11,975 nucleotides of DNA, taken from Desulfarculus sp. Lineage in GTDB: Bacteria; Desulfobacterota; Desulfarculia; Desulfarculales; Desulfarculaceae. The notes under the pieces were generated by a model. That model did no database searches. It had not been told where the DNA came from and was given only the letters and a program-made list of their open reading frames with translations. The translations under genes were made by a program, and so were the position numbers. The stretch lies in contig JAIUYB010000027.1 in NCBI GenBank assembly GCA_020216625.1, positions 1 to 11,975 of the forward strand, written 5' to 3'. Below, in pieces: positions 1,509 to 11,975 of this stretch (the stretch's first letter is position 1; each line of letters starts with the position of its first letter).

Positions 1509-3878
1509 TCAGCGTGGGTTGTGGTCCCGGGGCGGGGCCGGACAGGCGGCCGGGGCCTGATCGCCCAGGGGCAGTCTTCGGTCGCGCACGTAGACATTGC
1601 CGGGCAGGGACTTGGCGTAGCGCTTGACCTCGGCCGCGCGCTGGCTGATCTGGCCCAGGTCGCAGCGACCCAGGCAGTCGACGATGGCCATGGAGACCGA
1701 GATGAGGGGGAACTGGCCGGGGTTGCCGTTGCGGTCCTTGCCCTGGACATAACCGCGTTGACGATCCTCCAGGGAGTAGCAGTGGGGCACCAGCCGGGCG
1801 AAGCAGCGCGTCACCGCCCGGCAGACCCGCTCGGCCCGCTCCGGGGTGGTGATGACCACGAAGTCGTCGCCGCCCACGTGGCCCACGAAGGCGTCGGGCC
1901 CGCCGTGGCGGCGCAGGGCCCAGACCAGGATCCGGCCCATCAAGAGGATCACCTTGTCGCCGGCCTCGAAGCCGTAGGTGTCGTTGTAGACCTTGAAGTG
2001 ATCGAGGTCCACGTAGACGAAGGCCGTGGCGGAAGCACCGGAGCAACGCGATTCGATCTCCTGCTCCAGGGCCACGTTGCCCGGCAGGCCGGTCAGGGGG
2101 CTCATGCCCCGGGCCATCTCCACCTGGACCCGGGCCAGGGCGTCCAGCATCTTCTGCACGCTGACGATGCCGGTCAGATAGCCGTCCTCGGTGACGATGA
2201 TGTGGTCGTAGAGCTTGAAGCGGTCGCGGTTCATGGCCGTCTTGGCCACCTGCTCCACCGGCGAGGAGCCCTCCACGATCAAAGGCGTCGCGTCCATCAC
2301 CCGGCTGACCGAGCGCTCCCAATACAGCGCGGTGCCGTAGTAGGTGCCCAACTGGCGGTCCAGGGCGTGGCTCATCACCAGACCCACCGGCTTGCCCCGG
2401 TCCACCACCACCAGCCCGGAGATGGGCTGATTGTCCAGCATCCGCTTGACCTCGCGGGTGCGGGCTTCGGTGGAGACCTGATGGGCCGGCTCCACCAGCT
2501 CGCGCACCGGGATCGAGCAGGCCCACTCCTTCTTGGCCCCGCCCCGGATGCTGCGCTTCAAGGGCAGGTTGGCGCGCGGCTGGGGTTTGGGCGCGGCCGG
2601 CCGGGCCAGGAAATAGCCCTGGCCATAGTGCACCCCCATGGCCACCAGGCTGGTCAGCTCGGTCTCGGTCTCGATGCCCTCGGCCACGATGGCGCAGCCG
2701 ATCTTGTCGGCGAAGGTCACCAGGGTCTCCACCAGGGCGCGTTGCACCGGATTGGCGTCGATGCCGTGGATCAGGCCCATGTCCACCTTGATGTAGTCCG
2801 GTCGGACCTTGGCGATGGAGCTCAGGCCGGAGTAGCCGGTGCCCACGTCGTCGATGGCCACCAGGTAACCCTGGGAGCGGTAGTGCTCCAGGGTGCGGTG
2901 AAACAGAGTGAAGTCCTTGATGGAGTGGCGTTCGGTGATCTCGAAGACCACGTTGTGGGGCCTGAGCCCGCAGCCGTCCAGCAGCCGCCGGGTCTCGCCG
3001 GAGCGGAAGTCCGGCGCGCCCATGGTCTGGGGGTGGATGTTCAAGAAGATCTTCTGCCCCGGCAAGAGCCCGCCCAGGCCGGCCAAGGCCTGTTCGCGGC
3101 AGGCCCGCTCCAGGCCGAACAAGGCCCCCACCTCCTCGGCGAAGTCAAAAAGCAGGCCCGGCGAGTGGAAATGGTCTCCCACCGGTCCGCGGGCCAAGGC
3201 CTCCCAGCCCAGGGTGTCGCCGGTGCGCAGATCCACGATGGGCTGGTAGACCGCCGACAACAGCGGCGTCTCCACCACCCGGCGGAAAGCCTGCATCAGG
3301 CCAAGTTTGTTGTAGTCCAGCTCCCCGGCCGCCACCTGGCGGGCGTCGCACAGGGCGTTGTAGAGCAGAGTCTCCAGCCCTCGGCCGGGCTCGGCCGGCA
3401 ACCAGGCGCAGCCCACGTCCACCATCAGATCCTGGCCGGTGAGCTGCACCGCGGTGGTGCCCAACTGGGTGCGCAGGGCCAGGCGCAGGCGCAGGCCCAG
3501 GTCCAGCAGGTGCTCCTGGTCTTGGTTGCCATTGGCGAACAGGATCATGAAGCTGGAGGGGTCCACCCGCTCGATGATCTGCAACCGCTGGGGATGGAGC
3601 AGCTGGGGGGTGATCCGGCGCAGGAGGTTCTCCACCGCCTCGGCCACCTCCCCGGCCAGTTGCTGGCCATACAGGCGCACGAACAAAGGAAAGGCCGCCA
3701 GGTTTACCCACAACAGGCCCACGCCCGCCCCCTGGGCCAAGCGGGCTTCCAGTTGGCCGCGCAAGGGGGCGCGCAGGCAGGCGAAGGCGGGCAGTTCCTC
3801 GGCCCGCGGGCGCAGGATGGGGTTGGTGATCATCGATCGCGGATGGGCCAGGGGGGCCTGGCTGAGTGCTTCGGGCAT
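1509..3878 (-). CDS. c-di-GMP turnover protein: degenerate GGDEF, EAL, CBS pair, GGDDF
   Basis: Large cytoplasmic second-messenger protein of about 789 residues; no membrane segment or signal peptide is seen. Order of parts: residues about 50-185, a GGDEF-fold-like region whose signature is lost ([11 protein letters not shown] stands where RxGGDEF would be). Residues about 205-430, an EAL phosphodiesterase domain with EAL (226-228), N280, E313, D343/D344, K364, E400 and Q420 all present, so hydrolysis of c-di-GMP is likely. Residues about 455-585, a pair of CBS modules, which in other proteins bind adenine nucleotides. Residues about 590-770, a GGDEF domain with [10 protein letters not shown] and a GGDDF signature (669-673); no RxxD inhibitory site is visible. 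The Asp-for-Glu signature leaves cyclase activity open. Start: the frame stays open to a GTG at 3971, but the extra residues look non-coding. ATG 3878 has a weak GGTGG site; ATG 3833 has none but lies closest to the conserved part. Neighbours: downstream of phoU, upstream of the chemoreceptor. Confidence 0.92.
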
Positions 3879-3944
3879 CAAGCACCACCAAGAACAAGCC
3901 CGCGCGGGGTGGGCCGCGAAGCGGGGGATTGACCAAGAAGGGTT

Positions 3945-3960
3945 CGACCCGCAGGGGTCG
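3945..3960 (-). other. Small hairpin in the leader of the c-di-GMP gene
   Basis: A perfect 6-bp inverted repeat, CGACCC and GGGTCG, with a 4-nt loop. It lies 67 nt upstream of the favoured ATG at 3878, between that ATG and the larger foldable element at 3999-4075. No T-run follows it on the minus strand, so it is not a classic terminator. It could be part of an RNA leader or chance in GC-rich DNA. Confidence 0.25.
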
Positions 3961-3998
3961 TCATTCGCCACGAGGCAATAGATATCAGCCCTCGGTGA

Positions 3999-4149: not shown

Positions 4150-4836
4150 CTAGCGCGGGCCCGCCCCGGCCTCGGCGGGGTTCTGGTGGCGGATGATGCG
4201 CCCCTCCACCAGGTAGACCACCTCCTCGGCGATGTTGGTGGCCTCGTCGCCCAGGCGCTCCAGGTGGCGGCTGGCCAGGATGAACTCCACCCCGCGCCGG
4301 ATCAGGCGGCGCTCGGCCGTCATCCAGCCGATCATCTCCTCCAGGAAGGAGCGGTTGAGGCTGTCCAGGTCGTCGTCGCGACGCAGGACGTGGGTGGCCA
4401 GGCGCACCGACTCCTGCACGAAGGCGTCCAGGCAATCGCGGGTCATCTCGCGGGCGATGTCGGCCATGTGCAGCAGGGTGCCCGGCACCTCGGTGGGCGA
4501 GAGCTCCTCGATGGCCATGGCCCGCTGGGCCAGGTTCACCGCCTGGTCGCCCATGCGCTCCAGGTAGGCGCAGATCTTGATCACCGCCGCCAAAAAGCGC
4601 AGGTCCACCGCCACCGGCTGCTGGGTGGCCAGCAGGGTGATGCAACGCTCCTCGATGTTGTTCTGCATCAAGTCGATGCGCCGGTCGCCACGCACCACCG
4701 CCCGCGCCAACTCCAGGTCGCGGCGGGCCAGGGCGGTGGTGGCGTCGTGGATGGCCTCCTCCACCAGACCGGCCATCTTGAGGAGCTCCTCCTTGACCTG
4801 CTGCATCTGGCGGTGAAAGTAGGAAACCGTGTTCAT
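4150..4836 (-). CDS. phoU: Phosphate transport system regulator PhoU
   Basis: Cytoplasmic all-helical regulator of 228 residues, the usual family length. It couples the Pst transporter to the PhoR sensor kinase and keeps the Pho regulon off when phosphate is plentiful. Two repeated three-helix bundles are visible, each with the family metal-binding signature: ERMGD at 93-97 and ERLGDEATNIAE at 193-204. The start at ATG 4836 follows the pstB stop by 31 nt, with GAGGA 10 nt upstream of the start. It is the last gene of the pstCAB-phoU unit, the common arrangement. The C-terminal tail (QNPAEAGAGPR) is poorly conserved. Identification is secure from the motifs and the operon context. Confidence 0.97.
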   Translation of the reverse strand: MNTVSYFHRQMQQVKEELLKMAGLVEEAIHDATTALARRDLELARAVVRGDRRIDLMQNNIEERCITLLATQQPVAVDLRFLAAVIKICAYLERMGDQAVNLAQRAMAIEELSPTEVPGTLLHMADIAREMTRDCLDAFVQESVRLATHVLRRDDDLDSLNRSFLEEMIGWMTAERRLIRRGVEFILASRHLERLGDEATNIAEEVVYLVEGRIIRHQNPAEAGAGPR

Positions 4837-4867
4837 GTGATCGTCAGTCCTCGGGGGTGGTGGCGGC

Positions 4868-5635
4868 CTAGCCGAAGCGGCCGGTGATGTAGTGCTCGGT
4901 TTGTTCCTTGCGCGGCCGGGTGAAGATCTCCTCGGTGGGGCCCATCTCCACCAGCCGGCCCATGTAGAAGAAGGCGGTCTCGTCGGAGACGCGGGCCGCC
5001 TGCTGCATGTTGTGGGTGACGATGATGACAGTGTAGTTGCGCTTGAGCTCCTTGACCAGCTCTTCGATGCGGGCGGTGGCGATGGGGTCCAGGGCGCTGG
5101 TGGGCTCGTCCATCAAAAGCACCTCCGGCTCCATGGCCACCGCGCGGGCGATGCACAGGCGTTGCTGCTGCCCGCCAGAGAGCCCCAAGGCCGATTGGTG
5201 CAGGATGTCCTTGACCTCGTCCCAGATGGCCGCCGCCTTCAGGCTGCGCTCCACCAGCTCGTCCAGCTTGGCGCGGTCGCGCAGGCCGTGCAGGCGCGGA
5301 CCGTAGGCCACGTTGTTGTAGATGGACTTGGGGAAGGGGTTTGGCTTCTGGAAGACCATGCCGATGCGCCGGCGCACGTGCACCGGGTCCACTTCGGGTC
5401 CGTAGAGGTTCACCCCCTCGAAGATCACCTTGCCCTCCACCCGGGTGCCGGCGATCAGGTCGTTCATGCGGTTCAAGAGCCGCAGAAAGGTGGACTTGCC
5501 GCAGCCGGAGGGACCGATCAGGGCGGTCACCTGGCTGCGCACCACTTTCAGGTTGATGTTGGTCAGGGCCTGGGACTCGCCGTAATAGAAGTTCAGGTCC
5601 TCTACCGAGATGATGGGCTCGGGGGCGTCTACCAT
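4868..5635 (-). CDS. pstB: Phosphate ABC transporter ATP-binding protein PstB
   Basis: ATPase subunit (255 residues, normal length) that powers PstCA-mediated phosphate import at the inner membrane. All ABC motifs are intact: Walker [10 protein letters not shown] (41-49), Q-loop Q96 in the PstB-typical [14 protein letters not shown], signature LSGGQ (152-156), Walker B LLMDE (173-177) and H-loop H208. The FQKPNPFP stretch and the Asn-rich loop after Walker A (LLNRMNDL) separate PstB from other ABC importer ATPases. Its ATG lies inside the end of pstA (7-nt overlap), with AGGA about 7 nt upstream, so translation is probably coupled. Confidence 0.98.
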
Positions 5636-6498
5636 TTCTTGGTCCTGCGCATCCGGGTGCGGGTGATGATGGCCACCAGGCTCAATCCCAGCACCAGGCT
5701 GATGAGCACCAGCACCGTGCCGTACTGCAACGGCCGGGTCTGGGCGATGTGGGTGCCGGCGGTGGCCAGAACGTAGATGTGGTAGGGCAGGGCCATCACC
5801 TGGCTAAAGACGCTGTCGGGCAGATAGAGGGTGTAGAAGGTGGCGGCGGTGAACATGATGGGCGCGGTCTCGCCGGCGGCGCGGCCGATGCCCAGGATGC
5901 TGCCGGTAAGGATGCCGGGCAGGGCGGCCGGCAGGACCACCTTGCGGATGGTCTGCCAGCGGGTGGCTCCCAGGGCCAGGGACGCCTCGCGGAAGGTGCT
6001 AGGCACCTGCCGGAGAGCCTCCTCGCTGGCCCCGATGACCGTGGGCAGGATCAACAAGCCCAGGGTCAGCGAGCCGGCCATGATGCTCACCCCCATGCCG
6101 AAGAAAACCACGAAGAGACCCAGGCCAAACAGACCGAAGACCACCGAGGGCACCCCGGCCAGGTTCTGGATGCCCAGGCGCACGATCCTGAGCACCCGGC
6201 CCTCGCTGGCGTATTCGCTCAGGTAGATGCTGGCCGCCACCCCCAGGGGCAGGGCCACCAGGATCGCGCCCAAGGTCAGATAGATGGTGCCCATGATGGC
6301 CGGGAAGATGCCGCCCTCGGTCATGGAGTTCCGGGGCGGCTGGCTGATGAACTCCCAGCTCAGGGCCCCGAGGCCATGGATCAGCACGAAGAGCAGGATG
6401 CCCCCCAGGGACAACAGCACCAGAAGCATGGCCAGGCGAAAGACCATGAAGGCCAGGGCCTCGCGCATCTTGCGGGCGGACAGGGAATGCCAGCTCAT
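5629..6498 (-). CDS. pstA: Phosphate ABC transporter permease PstA
   Basis: Inner-membrane permease of 289 residues forming the phosphate channel with PstC. About six hydrophobic segments are visible, the first at about residues 20-42. The cytoplasmic EAA loop that docks on PstB is at about 171-190 ([20 protein letters not shown]), followed by the PstA-typical [16 protein letters not shown]. The frame stays open upstream to 7071, but those residues are pstC read in the wrong frame. The start at ATG 6498 forms an ATGA overlap with the pstC stop and begins [10 protein letters not shown] before TM1. AAGGGAG lies about 10 nt upstream. The stop overlaps the pstB start by 7 nt. Confidence 0.97.
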
Positions 6499-7496
6499 AG
6501 GGTGGCGGCTCCCTTCTGCTGGAACCGGCTGCTGATCCAGGCCGCCACCAGGTTGAAGCCCAGGGTCAGGAGGAACAGCACGATGCCGATGGCGAACAGG
6601 GCATAGTAGTGCTCGGAGCCAAAAGGGGTCTCGCCCATCTCCGCGGCGATGGTGGCGGGCATGGGGCGCACCGAGTCGAAGATGCTGGTGGGTATCTGGG
6701 CCGCGCCGCCGGCCACCATCAGCACCACCATGGTCTCGCCCATGGCCCGGCTCATGCCCAGGATCACCGCGGTGCCCACCCCGGAGAGCGCCCCAGGCAG
6801 CAGCACCCGGGTCAGCGTCTCCCAGCGGGTGGCCCCCAGGGCCAGGGAGGCCTCCATCAGATCCCGCGGCACGGCGTAGAGCGCGTCCTCGCTGATGCTG
6901 GTGATGGTGGGGATGGCCATCAGGGCCAGCATGAGTGAGGCGTTGAGGATGTTGAGCCCGGTGGGTATGTCCCACAGTTCCTGCATCAGGGGGGCGATGA
7001 CCACCATGCCCACGAAGCCCAGCACCACCGAGGGCAGGCTGGCCAACAGCTCCACCCCGGGCTTGACCCACTCGCGCACCCGGGGGTTGGCCACCTCGGC
7101 CAGGTACAAGGCCGCGCCCACCCCCAGGGGCACCGCGATCAGGCTGCTGACCAGGGTCACGCTCATGGAGCCCAAGATCAGGGGGCCGATGCCGAAGTCG
7201 GGCGGGTCATAGGTGGGATACCAGGCGGTGCCGAGGATGAAATCCGACAACGAGACCGTCTTGAACAGGTACGCGCCCTCGCGGAACAGAAACATGATGA
7301 TCAGGGCCATCACCACCACCGAGAACAGGCCAGCGGCGGTGAAGACGATCCGGATCCAGGTCTCGCGGTCGCGGGAGCGGGCGCGGATGGGTTTGCGCGC
7401 CGGAGGGCTGGTCGTGGCCATCCCCTTGGCCGCCCCGGCAGCCGGGGTGGACAGCGGCTGGGCCGCGACGCTTTGGACTTGATTGATGGTGCTCAT
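6495..7496 (-). CDS. pstC: Phosphate ABC transporter permease PstC
   Basis: Inner-membrane permease partner of PstA, 333 residues. A roughly 48-residue Pro/Ala/Arg-rich cytoplasmic N-terminus precedes TM1 (about 49-71). Then come the conserved WYPTYDPPDFGIGPLILGS loop, the LPSVVLGFVG segment, and the EAA loop at about 215-234 ([20 protein letters not shown]), followed by GMSRAMGETM. These features separate PstC from PstA. The frame extends to 7571, but ATG 7496 has GGGAGAG just upstream while the upstream ATG has no convincing site, so 7496 is preferred; the N-terminus is the only uncertain part. It is the first gene of the pstCAB-phoU unit, with about 200 nt of leader and a Pho-box-like repeat upstream. 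Confidence 0.96.
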   Translation of the reverse strand: MSTINQVQSVAAQPLSTPAAGAAKGMATTSPPARKPIRARSRDRETWIRIVFTAAGLFSVVVMALIIMFLFREGAYLFKTVSLSDFILGTAWYPTYDPPDFGIGPLILGSMSVTLVSSLIAVPLGVGAALYLAEVANPRVREWVKPGVELLASLPSVVLGFVGMVVIAPLMQELWDIPTGLNILNASLMLALMAIPTITSISEDALYAVPRDLMEASLALGATRWETLTRVLLPGALSGVGTAVILGMSRAMGETMVVLMVAGGAAQIPTSIFDSVRPMPATIAAEMGETPFGSEHYYALFAIGIVLFLLTLGFNLVAAWISSRFQQKGAATL

Positions 7497-7695
7497 CTCT
7501 CTCCCGATGGCTGTGACGCCAACCTCGTCGTCTTTCCGCGCCGCCGCGGATGGCCGGGACTGGGTCGTCATCGGCTTCGGGCCGGGGAGGGGCTGGGCAT
7601 CGCCGTTTCCCGTGAATCGCTCGGGTTCATTTTCATTGCAGCACGAAGCCTGGCCAAATTCTAGGGGTCAATTGCGTACCTGGAGCGGCGGCCTT

Positions 7696-7713
7696 GTTAC
7701 AAGTATGTGACAA
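7696..7713 (-). promoter_or_regulatory. Pho-box-like direct repeat upstream of pstC
   Basis: On the minus strand TTGTCAC, four bases ATAC, then TTGTAAC: two seven-base half-sites starting exactly 11 bp apart, the spacing used by PhoB-type activators. It is about 200 nt upstream of the pstC ATG. The first half-site overlaps the T-run of the porin terminator. No good -10 is seen at the usual distance after it. A TAGAAT further downstream (about 7660) is a possible -10, but the geometry is not standard. Confidence 0.45.
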
Positions 7714-7745
7714 AACCGCCGCCCCGGAGTTTCCCGGGACGGCGG
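7712..7745 (-). terminator. Intrinsic terminator of the porin gene
   Basis: A 12-bp stem with one T-G pair (7716-7727 with 7734-7745), a 6-nt loop, and TTTT directly after it on the minus strand. It begins about 20 nt past the porin stop codon. This closes the pstS-porin transcription unit before pstC and implies that pstC has its own promoter or depends on readthrough. Confidence 0.85.
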
Positions 7746-7765
7746 CTGGAAGGCGGAGGACGAAA

Positions 7766-9040
7766 CTAGAACTTGAAGACCAAATCCGCGTGGATCATGT
7801 CGAACTCGGCGCTGGCGCCGGTGAGCTTCTCGTCCTCGGGCTGGCTGTGGTACCAGGTGAGCTGCGCGTCGGTGTACTCGAAGATCTTGTACTTGGCGCT
7901 GATCACATAGCCCTTGCGGTTGTTGAAGTTGAAGTCGGAGTCGCTGAACCAGCCGGGGGTGGAGTTGGCCTGGATGACCTTGTAGTCGGCGGTGATGCCG
8001 AAGGGGCCGTAGTCCAGGCCCAGGCCGACGTCGTAGCCGGAGTCCTTGCCGGCCGCCGCGCCGGTCAGATCCTCCTCGGAGTTCTTCATGTAGTGGCCCC
8101 AGACGCTGGCCTTGAGATTCTCGCCCAGCTTATGGGTGTACTTGCCGTAGACGTCCCAGACCTTGAACTTGGGCAGGGTGCCGTCGGCCTTGAGCACGTT
8201 GCCGTTGAGGGTGGTGGGGAAGTTGCCCACCTTCTCGTACTTGCTCCAGTCATAGTAGCTGGCGGCCACGGTCAGGTCGCAGGCGCCCTGCTTCCAGTTG
8301 ACGCCGGCCTGGGGGGCGTAGAGCACCGCGTCGCCTGGATCGTCGTTCTTCTGCTCCTTGAGGACGAAGGCGCCCAAGGTGACGAAGGGCTTGATGGCGC
8401 CCTTCTTGTTGAACATGAACTGCAACGCCGCGCCCTCGGGCACCACGTCGGAGTCCCACATGATGTTGGTGGTCACGTAGGGGTTGGTGAACTTGCCGCC
8501 GGTGGCGGTCACGATCTTGTCCAGGAAGGAGGGGGTCCACTTGGCGTAGGCGTGGTCGATGCCCCAGCTCTTCTCGCTGAACCAGTTGTCCAGGGTCTGG
8601 TTGGTGCTGGTGGGATCGTCGTCGGCGCCGGAAACCATGCGCAGGCCCACCTGCAGGTCCTCGTGGATCTGGCTGCGGGCGCCGAAGCGCAGGCGGTAGC
8701 GCCAGCGGGTGCGGTCGTCGGTGGACTTGCCCTTGAAGTCATCGGTCATCTTGGTTTCCATGCGCAGGCGCAGGTCGCCGTAGAGGCTGATGCGCTCCAG
8801 CCACTTGGGCAGGGAGTCCTTGGCGGCCTTGGAAGCCACCACCGCCACCTGCTCGCCCTGCTGGGCCTGGGTCTGCTGCACCTGGCCCAGCTGACCCTTC
8901 AGCTCGTCCAGGCTCTGCTCCAGCATTTTGATCTTCTGCTCCAACTCGACCTGGGTGGCGGCGGACGCCGGCAGACCCAGGCCCACGGCCAGCGCCGCGC
9001 CCACCAGACACGCGGCCAGGCCCTTGCCAAATCTTCTCAT
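7766..9040 (-). CDS. Putative outer-membrane porin (Porin_5-like), probably phosphate-related
   Basis: Outer-membrane beta-barrel of 424 residues. A Sec signal peptide covers residues 1-27 (MRRFGKGL, a hydrophobic core, then ASA before the cut). A heptad-patterned coiled coil follows at about 29-70 (VELEQKIKMLEQSLDELKGQ), then alternating aromatic beta-strands. The stretch RLRFGARSQIHEDLQVGLRM with DPTSTNQTLDNWFS resembles the putative-porin family Porin_5. The last residue is Phe, the usual barrel-assembly signal. Start: ATG 9040 has AAGGAG 7 nt upstream and begins the signal peptide; the frame extends to 9067 without better support. It lies between pstS and pstC, downstream of a strong hairpin, and ends at an intrinsic terminator. 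A role in phosphate passage is inferred from context only; the sequence does not show the selectivity of OprP-type channels. Confidence 0.9.
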   Translation of the reverse strand: MRRFGKGLAACLVGAALAVGLGLPASAATQVELEQKIKMLEQSLDELKGQLGQVQQTQAQQGEQVAVVASKAAKDSLPKWLERISLYGDLRLRMETKMTDDFKGKSTDDRTRWRYRLRFGARSQIHEDLQVGLRMVSGADDDPTSTNQTLDNWFSEKSWGIDHAYAKWTPSFLDKIVTATGGKFTNPYVTTNIMWDSDVVPEGAALQFMFNKKGAIKPFVTLGAFVLKEQKNDDPGDAVLYAPQAGVNWKQGACDLTVAASYYDWSKYEKVGNFPTTLNGNVLKADGTLPKFKVWDVYGKYTHKLGENLKASVWGHYMKNSEEDLTGAAAGKDSGYDVGLGLDYGPFGITADYKVIQANSTPGWFSDSDFNFNNRKGYVISAKYKIFEYTDAQLTWYHSQPEDEKLTGASAEFDMIHADLVFKF

Positions 9041-9072
9041 TTCGTTCTCCTTTTCACGTTGTCTCAAACGCC

Positions 9073-9118: not shown

Positions 9119-9943
9119 TTAGTTCATCGGGACGAAGCCCTCTTCCTTGACGATCTTCTGACCCTCGGGGCCCAGCACGAACTCGATGAAGTCCTTCACC
9201 GCGCCCTTGGGCTCGCCGTTGGTGTACATGTTCAGGCCGCGGGCGATGGCGTAGCTCTTGTCCTTGGCGGTCTGGGGGGTGGCCTCGACGCCGCCCACGC
9301 TCAGGGCCTTGACCTGGGGGTTGAGATAACCGATACCCACGTAGCCGATGGCGTACTTGTTGCCGGCCACGGCCTGGGCCACCGCGCCGTTGCTGGCCTG
9401 GAGCTGGGCGTCGGGACGAACCCGGTCCTTGCCCAGAACGTGCTCGTTCCAAACCTCGAAGGTGCCGGAGCTGGAATCACGGCTGACCACCACCACGGGC
9501 TTGTCCTCGCCGCCGACCTCCTTCCAGTTCTTGATCTTGCCGTTGTAGATGTCCTTCAGCTGCATCAGGCTCAGGTCCTTGACCGGGTTGGCCGGGTTGA
9601 CCACCGGCACGATGCAGTCCAGGGCCACCACGAACTGCTTGGGCTTGACGCCCTTGGACTGGGCCAGTTCCTCCTCCTTGGCCTTCATCTCGCGCGAGGA
9701 GTTGCCGATGTCGGCGGTGCCGTCGATGATGGCCTTGATGCCGTCGCCACTGCCGGTGCCGGCCACCGAGATCTTGGCCGCGGTGTTCTTTTTCATGAAG
9801 ACCTCGGCCGCCTTCTGGGCGATGGGCAGCACGGTGGTGGAGCCGGTGATGGCGATGTCCTCGGCGGCGGCGGGGGCCGCCAAGCCGGCGATCGCCAGGC
9901 CCAGGACGGCCATGGCGCTGGTGATCTTGGCGAAGCGTTTCAT
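9119..9943 (-). CDS. pstS: Periplasmic phosphate-binding protein PstS
   Basis: Soluble periplasmic receptor (274 residues) that delivers phosphate to PstCAB. A signal peptide covers residues 1-27, ending APAAA before EDIAITGS; there is no lipobox Cys at the cut, so it is probably free rather than a lipoprotein. Ligand-loop motifs typical of PstS are GSTT (34-37), GTGSGDG (62-68), the NSSREM segment (81-86) and SRDSSSGT (154-161). It belongs to the shorter PstS class common outside enterobacteria. Start: ATG 9943 has GGAGGG 6 nt upstream and starts the signal peptide exactly; the frame runs up to 9997, but those residues precede a normal signal peptide. It is the first gene of the unit, with the porin 78 nt downstream and a Pho-box-like repeat about 95 nt upstream. 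Confidence 0.97.
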   Translation of the reverse strand: MKRFAKITSAMAVLGLAIAGLAAPAAAEDIAITGSTTVLPIAQKAAEVFMKKNTAAKISVAGTGSGDGIKAIIDGTADIGNSSREMKAKEEELAQSKGVKPKQFVVALDCIVPVVNPANPVKDLSLMQLKDIYNGKIKNWKEVGGEDKPVVVVSRDSSSGTFEVWNEHVLGKDRVRPDAQLQASNGAVAQAVAGNKYAIGYVGIGYLNPQVKALSVGGVEATPQTAKDKSYAIARGLNMYTNGEPKGAVKDFIEFVLGPEGQKIVKEEGFVPMN

Positions 9944-9976
9944 CAATTCCCTCCATTGGTTGCAATGCGTGAAAAC

Positions 9977-9991
9977 TCGCGTGCGACGCGA
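9977..9991 (-). other. Short hairpin in the pstS 5' leader
   Basis: Inverted repeat TCGCGT/ACGCGA with a 3-nt loop, between the predicted pstS promoter and its ribosome site. It may shape or stabilise the leader. It is small enough to be chance. Confidence 0.2.
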
Positions 9992-10021
9992 AATCATGCT
10001 CCTCGAAGCTTTCTGGGCCCA

Positions 10022-10101: not shown

Positions 10102-10158
10102 TGGCGGAGCTTCCGGGCATGATTGCGATTCATGGCGTGTTCACGCAGCGCTCCGCCA
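10102..10158 (+). repeat. Separated 9-bp inverted repeat upstream of the cyclase-DHp gene
   Basis: TGGCGGAGC (10102-10110) and GCTCCGCCA (10150-10158) are perfect inverted copies about 39 nt apart, ending 30 nt before the favoured GTG start. It could be an operator pair or a leader stem. No clear -35/-10 pair for the plus-strand genes was recognised in 10055-10188. Confidence 0.3.
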
Positions 10159-10188
10159 TTGGGCGGCGCGATGGGGAGGACGGGGATC

Positions 10189-11160
10189 GTGCCGGGGCCG
10201 CTGTGGGATGTCAGCCTGCGCCTGGGCCGGGAGGGGGCCGCCTATCCTGGCGATCCGCCCTATTGGCGTCACGAGCAGCAATCTTTGGAGCGGGGCGACC
10301 CCTTCACCCTGTCCAGCCTCTGCCTCTGCGCCCACTCCGGCACCCACCTGGACGCCCCGGCCCATTTCCTGCCCCACGGACGCACCCTGGACGCCTACCC
10401 GCCCCAGCGCTTCGTCCTGCCGGCCTGGCTGGTGGAGGCCCCGGGCGGCCCCACCCTGGGTCCGGAGGTCCTGGACGGGCTGCCCCCCCAGGCCCAGGGC
10501 CGGGCGCTGTTGTTCAAGACCGCCAACTCCACCCGCGGCCTGGCCACCGCCACCACCTGGTCGCCGGATTACGTCCACCTGGGGCCGGAGCTGGCCCGGC
10601 GCTGCCTGGACTTGGGAGCGGAGCTGGTGGGCCTGGACGCGCCCAGCCTGGACAACCCCGCCTCAAGCGATTATCCCGTGCACCGATTGCTCCTGGAGGC
10701 CGACGCCCTGATCCTGGAGGGGCTCAATCTGGCCGCGCCCGCGCCCGGCCCCTATCTGCTGATCTGCGCGCCTCTAAAACTGGACGCGGCCGAGGCCGCC
10801 CCGGCCCGGGCCCTGCTCTGGAGCGAGGATGACTGGTCCCCGCCCGGCCTGGACCTGGGCCAGACCCGGCTCCAGGCCGCCCGGGCCATGGCCGGGGCCG
10901 CTTGCCACGAGATGAACCAGCCCCTGCAGGCGCTCCTTAGCCAATGCGAATTGCTGGCCGACGAACTGGAAGGACTGGCTGGCCTGGAGGCGCCCCGCCG
11001 TCGGCTCCAGGCCATGCTCGACCAGGTGCGCCGCCTGGCGGTCATCACCGGCCGCCTCCACCGCCTGGTTCGTTACAAGACCATCGAATACCCCGGACGC
11101 CAGCGCATCGTGGACCTGGAGCGGGCCACCCGGCCCCCCGAGGACGAGGAGCCGGCCTAG
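10189..11160 (+). CDS. Cyclase/formamidase-family enzyme fused to a histidine-kinase DHp domain
   Basis: A 323-residue protein of two unlike parts in one uninterrupted frame. Residues 1 to about 205 are a cyclase family (kynurenine formamidase-like, PF04199 type) hydrolase with the metal motif H49-S-G-T-H53-L-D55-A-P-A-H59. The distal H165 and E177 match the positions of the remaining metal ligands in bacterial KynB, so an active metallohydrolase is likely; the substrate is unknown. Residues about 225-310 are a DHp/HisKA-like helical hairpin with H-box H240-E-M-N-Q-P-L, ending RLVRYKTIEYPG and RIVDLERA. No N, G1 or G2 ATPase boxes follow, so it cannot be a complete kinase. Start: GTG 10189 has GGGGAGG about 9 nt upstream and opens directly into the enzyme fold; in-frame ATGs at 10171 and 10123 are less likely. 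It is divergent from pstS and followed 2 nt later by a glycosyltransferase. Confidence 0.85.
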   Translation: MPGPLWDVSLRLGREGAAYPGDPPYWRHEQQSLERGDPFTLSSLCLCAHSGTHLDAPAHFLPHGRTLDAYPPQRFVLPAWLVEAPGGPTLGPEVLDGLPPQAQGRALLFKTANSTRGLATATTWSPDYVHLGPELARRCLDLGAELVGLDAPSLDNPASSDYPVHRLLLEADALILEGLNLAAPAPGPYLLICAPLKLDAAEAAPARALLWSEDDWSPPGLDLGQTRLQAARAMAGAACHEMNQPLQALLSQCELLADELEGLAGLEAPRRRLQAMLDQVRRLAVITGRLHRLVRYKTIEYPGRQRIVDLERATRPPEDEEPA

Positions 11161-11162
11161 GC

Positions 11163-11975
11163 ATGGCCGCCACCCCGCCGCCGCTGTTCACGGTCTTCAC
11201 CCCGACCTACAACCGCGCCCACACCCTGGACCGGGTGCGCGCCAGCCTGGCCGCCCAGACCTTCACCGATTTCGAGTGGCTGATCGTGGACGATGGCTCC
11301 AGCGACGGCACCGCCGAGCTGGTGGAAGGCTGGCGAAGGGACGCGGCCTTCCCCATCCGCTACCAATATCAAAAGAACCAGGGCAAGCACGCGGCCCTGA
11401 ACCGGGGCGCGGCCCTGGCCCGGGGGGAGTTGTTCCTGACCCTGGATTCCGACGACGCCTGTCTGCCCCAGGCCCTGGAGCGCCTGGCCTGGCACTGGCG
11501 ACAAATACCCGAAGCCGTCCGCCCGCGTTTCGCCGGGGTGGCCGGCCGCTGCCAGGACCAGAACGGACGCCTGGTGGGATCGCCCCTGCCCCGGCCGGTG
11601 ATGGAGGTCAGCGCCCTGGAGCTGCGCCATCGCTGGCGGGTGAAGGGCGAGCTGTGGGGCTTCACCCGCAGCGACCTGGTGCGGGCCCATCCCGCGCCCG
11701 AACCGCCCGGGGCCCGTTTCGTGCCCGAGGACCTGATCTGGACCCCCATCGCCCGCGCCCACCTGACCCGGTTCGTGGACGAGCCCCTGCGGGTCTACCA
11801 CCAGGGCCAGTCCGACAGCCTCACCGCCTCCGGCGCGCCGGCCGGCCACCGTCTGGGGCTGATGCTCTGGCACCGCCAGACCCTGAATCTGGAGATGGAC
11901 TGGTTCTGGCGCGACCCGCTGCCTTTGCTGCGGGCCGGGGTAAACTACGCCCGCTTCGCCGCCGGCGCGGGCCTG
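11163..11975 (+). CDS. Family 2 glycosyltransferase (3' end outside window)
   Basis: The frame is open from ATG 11163 to the window edge (271 codons). It encodes an inverting GT-A glycosyltransferase that moves a sugar from a nucleotide-sugar donor, usually for surface polysaccharide or lipid glycans. Visible motifs are FTPTYNRAHTLDRV (12-25), the donor-binding VDDGSSDGT (42-50), GKHAALNRG (74-82), the metal-binding LDSDD (94-98), and PEDLIW (188-193), whose acidic pair is probably catalytic. The cytosolic domain has no membrane segment in the part seen. The ATG is 2 nt after the stop of the cyclase-DHp gene and the likely ribosome site (GAGGAG) lies inside that gene, so translation is probably coupled. 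Acceptor and donor sugars cannot be told. Confidence 0.93.
   Translation, partial: MAATPPPLFTVFTPTYNRAHTLDRVRASLAAQTFTDFEWLIVDDGSSDGTAELVEGWRRDAAFPIRYQYQKNQGKHAALNRGAALARGELFLTLDSDDACLPQALERLAWHWRQIPEAVRPRFAGVAGRCQDQNGRLVGSPLPRPVMEVSALELRHRWRVKGELWGFTRSDLVRAHPAPEPPGARFVPEDLIWTPIARAHLTRFVDEPLRVYHQGQSDSLTASGAPAGHRLGLMLWHRQTLNLEMDWFWRDPLPLLRAGVNYARFAAGAGL

Follow-up and report, generated by a model that had tools for sequence, protein, structure and literature searches.

The window, that is, the whole stretch of 11,975 nucleotides analysed here, carries on its forward strand a gene in which a PF04199 metallohydrolase is followed by a histidine-kinase DHp domain that lacks an ATPase domain, next to a phosphate-uptake operon on the opposite strand. 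The frame is unbroken from the GTG at 10189 to the stop at 11160 and encodes 323 aa; the longest open reading frame (ORF), 10123-11160, begins at a TTG; alternative starts upstream of the GTG are the ATG at 10171 (329 aa) and the TTG at 10123. A Shine-Dalgarno-like sequence lies 8 nt upstream of the GTG, and the start codon of the deposited ortholog P0003 (323 aa) corresponds to 10189. Residues are numbered throughout according to the 329-aa form starting at ATG 10171, which places them six positions higher than in the original prediction. The features of the gene, all on the plus strand, are the following:

10173-10180 (+): Shine-Dalgarno-like sequence, GGGGAGGA
10189..11160 (+): fusion gene, PF04199 metallohydrolase plus ATPase-less DHp, 323 aa from GTG
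10192..10821 (+): metallohydrolase (cyclase/KynB-like) domain, residues 8-217
10333..10365 (+): H55-x3-H59-x-D61-x3-H65 metal/active-site motif, spaced like the KynB ligands
10681..10719 (+): H171 and E183, the rest of the metal ligands, spaced like those of KynB
10822..10854 (+): linker with prolines, residues 218-228, from alignment and model
10855..10968 (+): DHp helix 1 with the H-box, residues 229-266, from the structure model
10906..10908 (+): codon of the predicted phospho-acceptor His246 (originally numbered H240), from sequence and module alignment
10987..11067 (+): DHp helix 2, residues 273-299, from the structure model
11068..11127 (+): conserved C-terminal tail Y-x-T ... Y ... I-V-D-L, predicted to fold as a beta hairpin and standing in for the ATPase domain

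The hydrolase and the DHp domain

In the Pfam scan, PF04199 is matched at residues 30-161 (E 4.5e-16, 59.8 bits, gathering cut-off 23.1) and PF00512 HisKA at residues 238-301 (E 2.7e-6, 27.8 bits, barely above the cut-off of 26.9), with no third family, HATPase_c included, at E<=1. Since the frame stops at 11160 and the next ORF, a glycosyltransferase, starts with the ATG at 11163, no ATPase domain lies downstream. The original prediction of a hydrolase-DHp fusion in one continuous frame, ending without an ATPase domain, is thus borne out, and the same joint order recurs in five other protein clusters.

The catalytic residues H55, H59, D61, H65, H171 and E183 do not vary among 37 aligned relatives, which confirms the complete active site first read as H49, H53, D55, H59, H165 and E177. 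According to the accessible part of the KynB structure report (PMC4243253), the dinuclear zinc site of that enzyme is formed by His50, His54, Asp56, His60, His161 and Glu173; the metal-ligand set of the window enzyme is complete and its spacing is identical to that of KynB. Both sequence and fold searches return KynB and other metal-dependent hydrolases as the closest solved chains. Entries of like fold comprise KynB and PF04199 "cyclase" hydrolases (PDB 4cog, 4cob, 4co9, 8hmo and 1r61) and isatin hydrolase (4j0n), with 4cog matched at E 9.5e-20 and a TM score of 0.88 by target length. The PF04199-type fold is also shared by 8f9x, a cyclase-phosphotriesterase of Ruegeria pomeroyi as far as its entry title tells (sequence E 4.4e-8, fold search rank 13, 22-23% identity). 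KynB and the PF04199 hydrolases have no DHp tail, which is the extra element of the window protein.

The N-terminal part is thus a cyclase/KynB-type hydrolase by its fold; its dinuclear-metal site is intact and presumably catalytic. Its substrate probably differs from that of kynurenine formamidase, because the score against the arylformamidase equivalog TIGR03035 (NCBIfam) is 102 bits, below the cut-off of 223.05, and because the pocket residue Trp20 of BaKynB, named in the accessible text of PMC4243253, is replaced in the alignment by Tyr25.

The H-box of the DHp domain reads HEMNQPL at residues 246-252, intact as predicted and within a HisKA match above the Pfam cut-off; we take it to be NtrB/DctB-like. 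Ordinary kinases use the acidic residue after the His in autophosphorylation. In the nearest ortholog (L004/P0003, 92% identical) the motif is HAMNQPL, so that the His is kept and the acidic Glu following it is gone. The full-length model has a mean pLDDT of 86 (37 alignment rows, six of them with the DHp), with values above 90 for the hydrolase, helices at 229-266 and 273-299, and low confidence (45-57) for the tail; 30 residues in all follow DHp helix 2. The model of the module alone (63 rows) reaches a mean pLDDT of 89 and a pTM of 0.68, and consists of two helices, a beta hairpin and a short helix. The helical hairpin expected around the predicted phospho-His is therefore present in both models, and in this DHp family the position at which an ATPase domain would start appears to be taken by a small conserved hairpin. 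Solved DHp hairpins are recovered by the fold search as expected, these matches being not discriminating; the nearest solved class I histidine kinases include FixL, LvrB and ZraS. The HisKA domain and the hairpin are common to class I kinases and the window protein, which differs from them in having no ATPase domain. The linker contains prolines and is not one continuous helix in the model, which argues against tight mechanical coupling between the two domains.

Distribution and origin of the fusion

The DHp part, searched against 5.8 billion proteins, yielded 1217 candidates, of which 9 passed at E<=0.001. Five of the 9 (P0002-P0006) are fused in the same way, making the window protein the sixth fused sequence; the five clusters are 69-92% identical to it, and all six sequences align end to end with a common end point. 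The whole-protein search returned 427 matches, and among the best 120 of them, classed by their Pfam strings, 5 are fused and 115 consist of PF04199 alone. The genome collection contains 148 stretches that code for a relative; among the 80 kept, the whole query is matched in one, L004 (Desulfarculus sp. M71, the record underlying P0003). Ten further stretches were read and end without the DHp, both those whose match extends past residue 240 (L014, L043 and L068) and L005, L006, L007, L008, L010, L034 and L081; the other 69 of the 80 were classed from match ends alone. Of 40 genomes, 39 relatives plus the one that contains the window, two carry the fusion, G000 and G005, the latter of which appears to be the assembly of L004. 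As other relatives, some of the same genus (L005 and L006, named Desulfarculus sp. too), are without the tail, the fusion seems to be restricted to one Desulfarculales clade.

The original prediction had also named an alternative, that related genomes would carry two separate genes with a stop at about codon 210. Orthologs stopping at about codon 210-235 do exist; this alternative nevertheless fails in its other half, since no adjoining DHp gene was seen beside the orthologs ending without the tail where their flanks were read, and the fusion occurs in six sequences. Identity to the window protein is similar for the hydrolase and DHp parts (71% vs 75% for P0005, 70% vs 70% for P0006), and dN/dS between the window and L004 is 0.118 for the hydrolase part and 0.158 for the DHp plus tail, so that both domains are under purifying selection. 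An assembly joint is ruled out by the five further fused clusters, their same domain order and the purifying selection on both domains.

In the tree, the DHp domains of the six fusion proteins group together as a single clade (support 100/99), and a long PAS protein, P0007, is their nearest relative (88/82, from few columns and a rough bootstrap). Most simply, one event in the ancestor of the clade would have attached the DHp end of a sensor-type gene to the hydrolase.

A family of DHp modules ending without an ATPase domain

The tail belongs to a little-studied family that is spread across otherwise different proteins. It was followed with a profile, A2, built from seven tails with the window sequence among them, so that the window's own A2 score is given by construction; phmmer matches between the window tail and P0007-P0010 (E 1.2e-13 to 1.3e-8) provide support independent of the profile. 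The genome of the window holds two more module proteins, one with a receiver (L002) and one with DUF484 and a sub-threshold GAF_2 match (L003). In 20 genomes of the window's family, A2 gives 54 matches of at least 58 bits, distributed over 19 of the 20 genomes; nearly all of them cover the full length of the profile, C-terminal part included. The score then drops to 44.5 bits, and most of the lower matches listed stop at about position 75 of 94. Across the phylum, matches at E<=1e-8, many of them low-scoring and kinase-like, occur in 99 of 148 genomes, and matches of at least 55 bits in 47.

A set of 83 proteins was assembled from all 54 family matches and 30 fetched outside the family, with a module of at least 45 bits required; L232, which has no module, was dropped. 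In 82 of the 83 the protein ends within 21 residues of the module. The exception, L234, continues with a second H-box and HATPase_c, and is the one protein of the set with a HATPase_c domain. The occurrence of ATPase-less DHp tails in Desulfobacterota signalling proteins, mentioned in the original prediction, thus holds for 54 of 54 module matches in the window's family and for 28 of the 29 readable proteins among the 30 fetched elsewhere in the phylum. Within the modules the His is conserved in 83, Pro(+5) in 83, Gln(+4) in 80 and Glu(+1) in 74, and in the tail Tyr is kept in 79, Ile in 80 and Asp in 81, counts that are not independent because the 83 rows were picked by the profile and many are mutual orthologs. 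The resulting family signature, AGAxxHExxQP plus a Y..T..Y....I.D tail no more than about 20 residues from the C-terminus, is present in the fusion protein.

PAS (38), receiver (18), GAF_2 (15) and HDOD (5) domains are found among the 83 proteins, and PF04199 in two, the window protein and L004; the enzyme occupies the slot held elsewhere by a PAS, GAF, receiver or HDOD domain. A search with the tail of L002 returned 29 proteins, 26 with a receiver plus HisKA and 3 with HisKA alone. The literature searched describes neither a Desulfobacterota DHp family with a tail of its own nor an enzyme fused to one. Two architectures may be recorded in passing: the gene for L234 (1633-3090, plus strand) may link the module to full kinases, and P0008 combines Hpt and HisKA, by its Pfam string, with the same C-terminal tail.

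Gene neighbourhood and possible function

The neighbourhood of the hydrolase gene, in the window and in orthologous loci, contains the following features:

9119..9997 (-): pstS, phosphate-binding protein (TIGR02136, 284 bits, cut-off 206.6), divergent from the fusion gene
4150..9067 (-): other genes of the phosphate-uptake operon, with a Porin_5 gene, pstC, pstA, pstB and phoU
7766-9067 (-): the Porin_5 gene, between pstS and the pst permease genes
L249 6646-7029 and L254 244-639 (+): stand-alone receivers after unfused hydrolase orthologs, in two genera

The pstS, pstC, pstA, pstB and phoU genes of the window each score above the respective NCBIfam cut-off, and the same holds for the pstS genes of G005 and G009 and for pstB of G009. 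The window, G005 and G009 share one arrangement, with the hydrolase gene divergent from pstS at a pst operon; in G001, G002 and G004 it lies downstream of, and co-oriented with, a DUF47-PHO4 (phosphate permease) pair. In these two arrangements, phosphate-uptake genes adjoin all six orthologs that are at least 49% identical and have both flanks readable, the 49% cut having been set after the contexts were seen. No recognisable phosphate gene adjoins L007 (48%), and none adjoins L008, G007, G008 and G016 (37-41%), which were read without a family scan. The hydrolase of G003 is truncated by the contig end, and the pst locus of that genome has no adjoining hydrolase, which counts against a strict phosphate link. 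A Pho-box-like signal was looked for and none was found. The neighbouring genes suggest a role near phosphate uptake. In G009 a Porin_5 gene likewise lies between pstS and the pst permease genes (L249 3422-4690), and a ZnuA gene is found slightly beyond the hydrolase/phosphate locus in L246 and L248. Beyond the pst operon, the window encodes an EAL-CBS-GGDEF protein of 820 aa (1509-3971, minus strand), adjoined by an ORF at 2-1750 that reads as chemoreceptor-like.

Stand-alone receivers follow the unfused hydrolase on the same strand in G009 and G003, 86 and about 150 bases downstream, and are 50% identical to each other. Related receivers in G007 (55%) and G010 (48%) adjoin zinc-type ABC genes instead. 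In G000 and G005 (70% and 54% complete) no close relative of these receivers was found, the best matches scoring 74 and 68 bits and both lying in longer ORFs, and the genes flanking the fusion gene in the window include no recognised kinase or receiver. Among 150 ORFs neighbouring module genes (150 of 160, by a rough ORF-calling rule), receivers are encoded by 5 and Hpt domains by 3, and the 25 commonest families do not include HATPase_c. The commonest neighbour there is a HIT-domain gene (15 of 150), which looks like one conserved L003-like neighbourhood.

Histidine-kinase parts normally report to gene regulators, and in Spo0B, which like ChpT is a dimeric DHp phosphotransferase, an ATPase-like domain is kept. 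The same is described for ChpT, in which, as far as the available account goes, the DHp His relays phosphate without autophosphorylation and the ATPase-like domain is atypical. The phospho-acceptor His on a DHp hairpin of Spo0B/ChpT has its counterpart in the fusion protein, in sequence and in the model; their degenerate C-terminal ATPase-like domain, by contrast, is missing and a short predicted beta hairpin stands instead, and an enzyme domain, which Spo0B and ChpT are not known to have, is present. By analogy it is quite possible, though we would put it at slightly less than an even chance, that the DHp acts as a dimerising phosphotransfer module exchanging phosphate with a separate receiver and coupled to the hydrolase. 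The observations from which this reading starts are the fusion itself, the intact catalytic set, the missing ATPase domain, the invariance of the His and the conservation of both domains. Two subunits would pair through a DHp four-helix bundle, a dimer being expected from the DHp architecture and KynB dimerising too. Phosphate would pass between the DHp His and the Asp of a receiver in the manner of Spo0B/ChpT, because the His, Gln(+4) and Pro(+5) are kept in a module that, as in ChpT, stands without an ATPase domain, and the hydrolase and the two-component circuit may inform each other. The receivers encoded behind the unfused hydrolases of G009 and G003 speak for this reading; the lack of a recognised kinase or receiver gene beside the fusion gene, the few receivers and Hpt domains near module genes, the Glu(+1) lost in L004 and the ATPase-like domain retained by ChpT and Spo0B speak against it. 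Of the two directions, signalling from the hydrolase, which would report on its ligand, to the DHp is slightly favoured over gating of the hydrolase by the DHp, since most related proteins have a sensory N-terminal domain with the DHp as the C-terminal unit. The fuller version, in which receiver-driven phosphorylation of the DHp His switches, or is switched by, the metal site, the circuit is tied to phosphate uptake and the module is a general plug, is unlikely as a whole.

The main rival is a purely structural role, in which the DHp is a mere dimerisation or docking piece that joins hydrolase subunits or tethers them to a kinase, its His staying unphosphorylated. This is somewhat unlikely, and it would suit the KynB dimer, whose active site receives residues from both subunits according to the accessible part of PMC4243253, and the loss in the L004 ortholog of the acidic residue used in autophosphorylation; dimers and protein contacts have also been proposed for archaeal receiver-HisKA proteins (PMC5847659, in the part available). 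A pure dimeriser, however, needs no His, and the retention of His and Pro(+5) in all 83 modules and of Gln(+4) in 80 speaks for more than dimerisation, while KynB dimerises without a tail (PMC4243253, same part) and the 115 PF04199-only proteins among the best 120 of 427 relatives do without one as well.

It is distinctly less probable that a full kinase, its ATPase domain acting in trans within a mixed dimer, phosphorylates the module, so that the partner of the hydrolase would be a kinase and not a receiver. Glu(+1) is kept in 74 of the 83 modules, the fold matches include a RetS-GacS DHp co-complex, and with 60 HisKA matches in G007 alone candidate partners are plentiful; against this, no recognised kinase gene adjoins the fusion gene, Glu(+1) is lost in L004 and there is no sign of kinase specificity. 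That the tail is a decaying kinase stump or a functionless assembly joint is very improbable, because, even if one deletion would account for the missing ATPase domain, the HisKA score barely passes its cut-off and one H-box residue is lost in L004, the end point is identical in six fused sequences, one of them on a contig of 159,704 bases, dN/dS is low in the DHp plus tail and the same kind of ending is found in 82 of 83 module proteins.

HisKA without HATPase is already known in archaea, as kinase-like or receiver-HisKA architectures (PMC1183210, 2005; PMC5847659, 2018, both in their accessible parts). The Archaeoglobus AF_1472 type shares with the window protein a HisKA without an ATPase domain; the archaeal HisKA-only proteins described there have a receiver, PAS or GAF input, whereas the window protein has an enzyme. 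These look-alikes of the signature-bearing proteins were described in 2018 as a class of which none had been studied experimentally (PMC5847659, in the part available). The new part is the Desulfobacterota family with its own tail and the enzyme fusion. If the phosphotransfer reading is true, a metabolic enzyme would be wired straight into a phosphate-signalling circuit; on the fuller version, the DHp and its beta-hairpin tail would serve Desulfobacterota as a plug that connects many inputs, in this case an enzyme, to a common pool of receivers. This module, with its invariant His and no ATPase domain, would be a test case for whether phospho-His modules can link enzymes directly to two-component circuits, with no transcription step between them, and it gives a sequence signature for proteins whose records carry names such as "response regulator" or "cyclase family protein". 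As a separate observation, in the receiver-DHp relatives P0127-P0152 the Lys-Pro motif of the receiver is Arg-Pro in 25 of 26 and a simple acceptor-Asp pattern is matched in 24 of 26, and the phosphate chemistry of these receivers is possibly altered.
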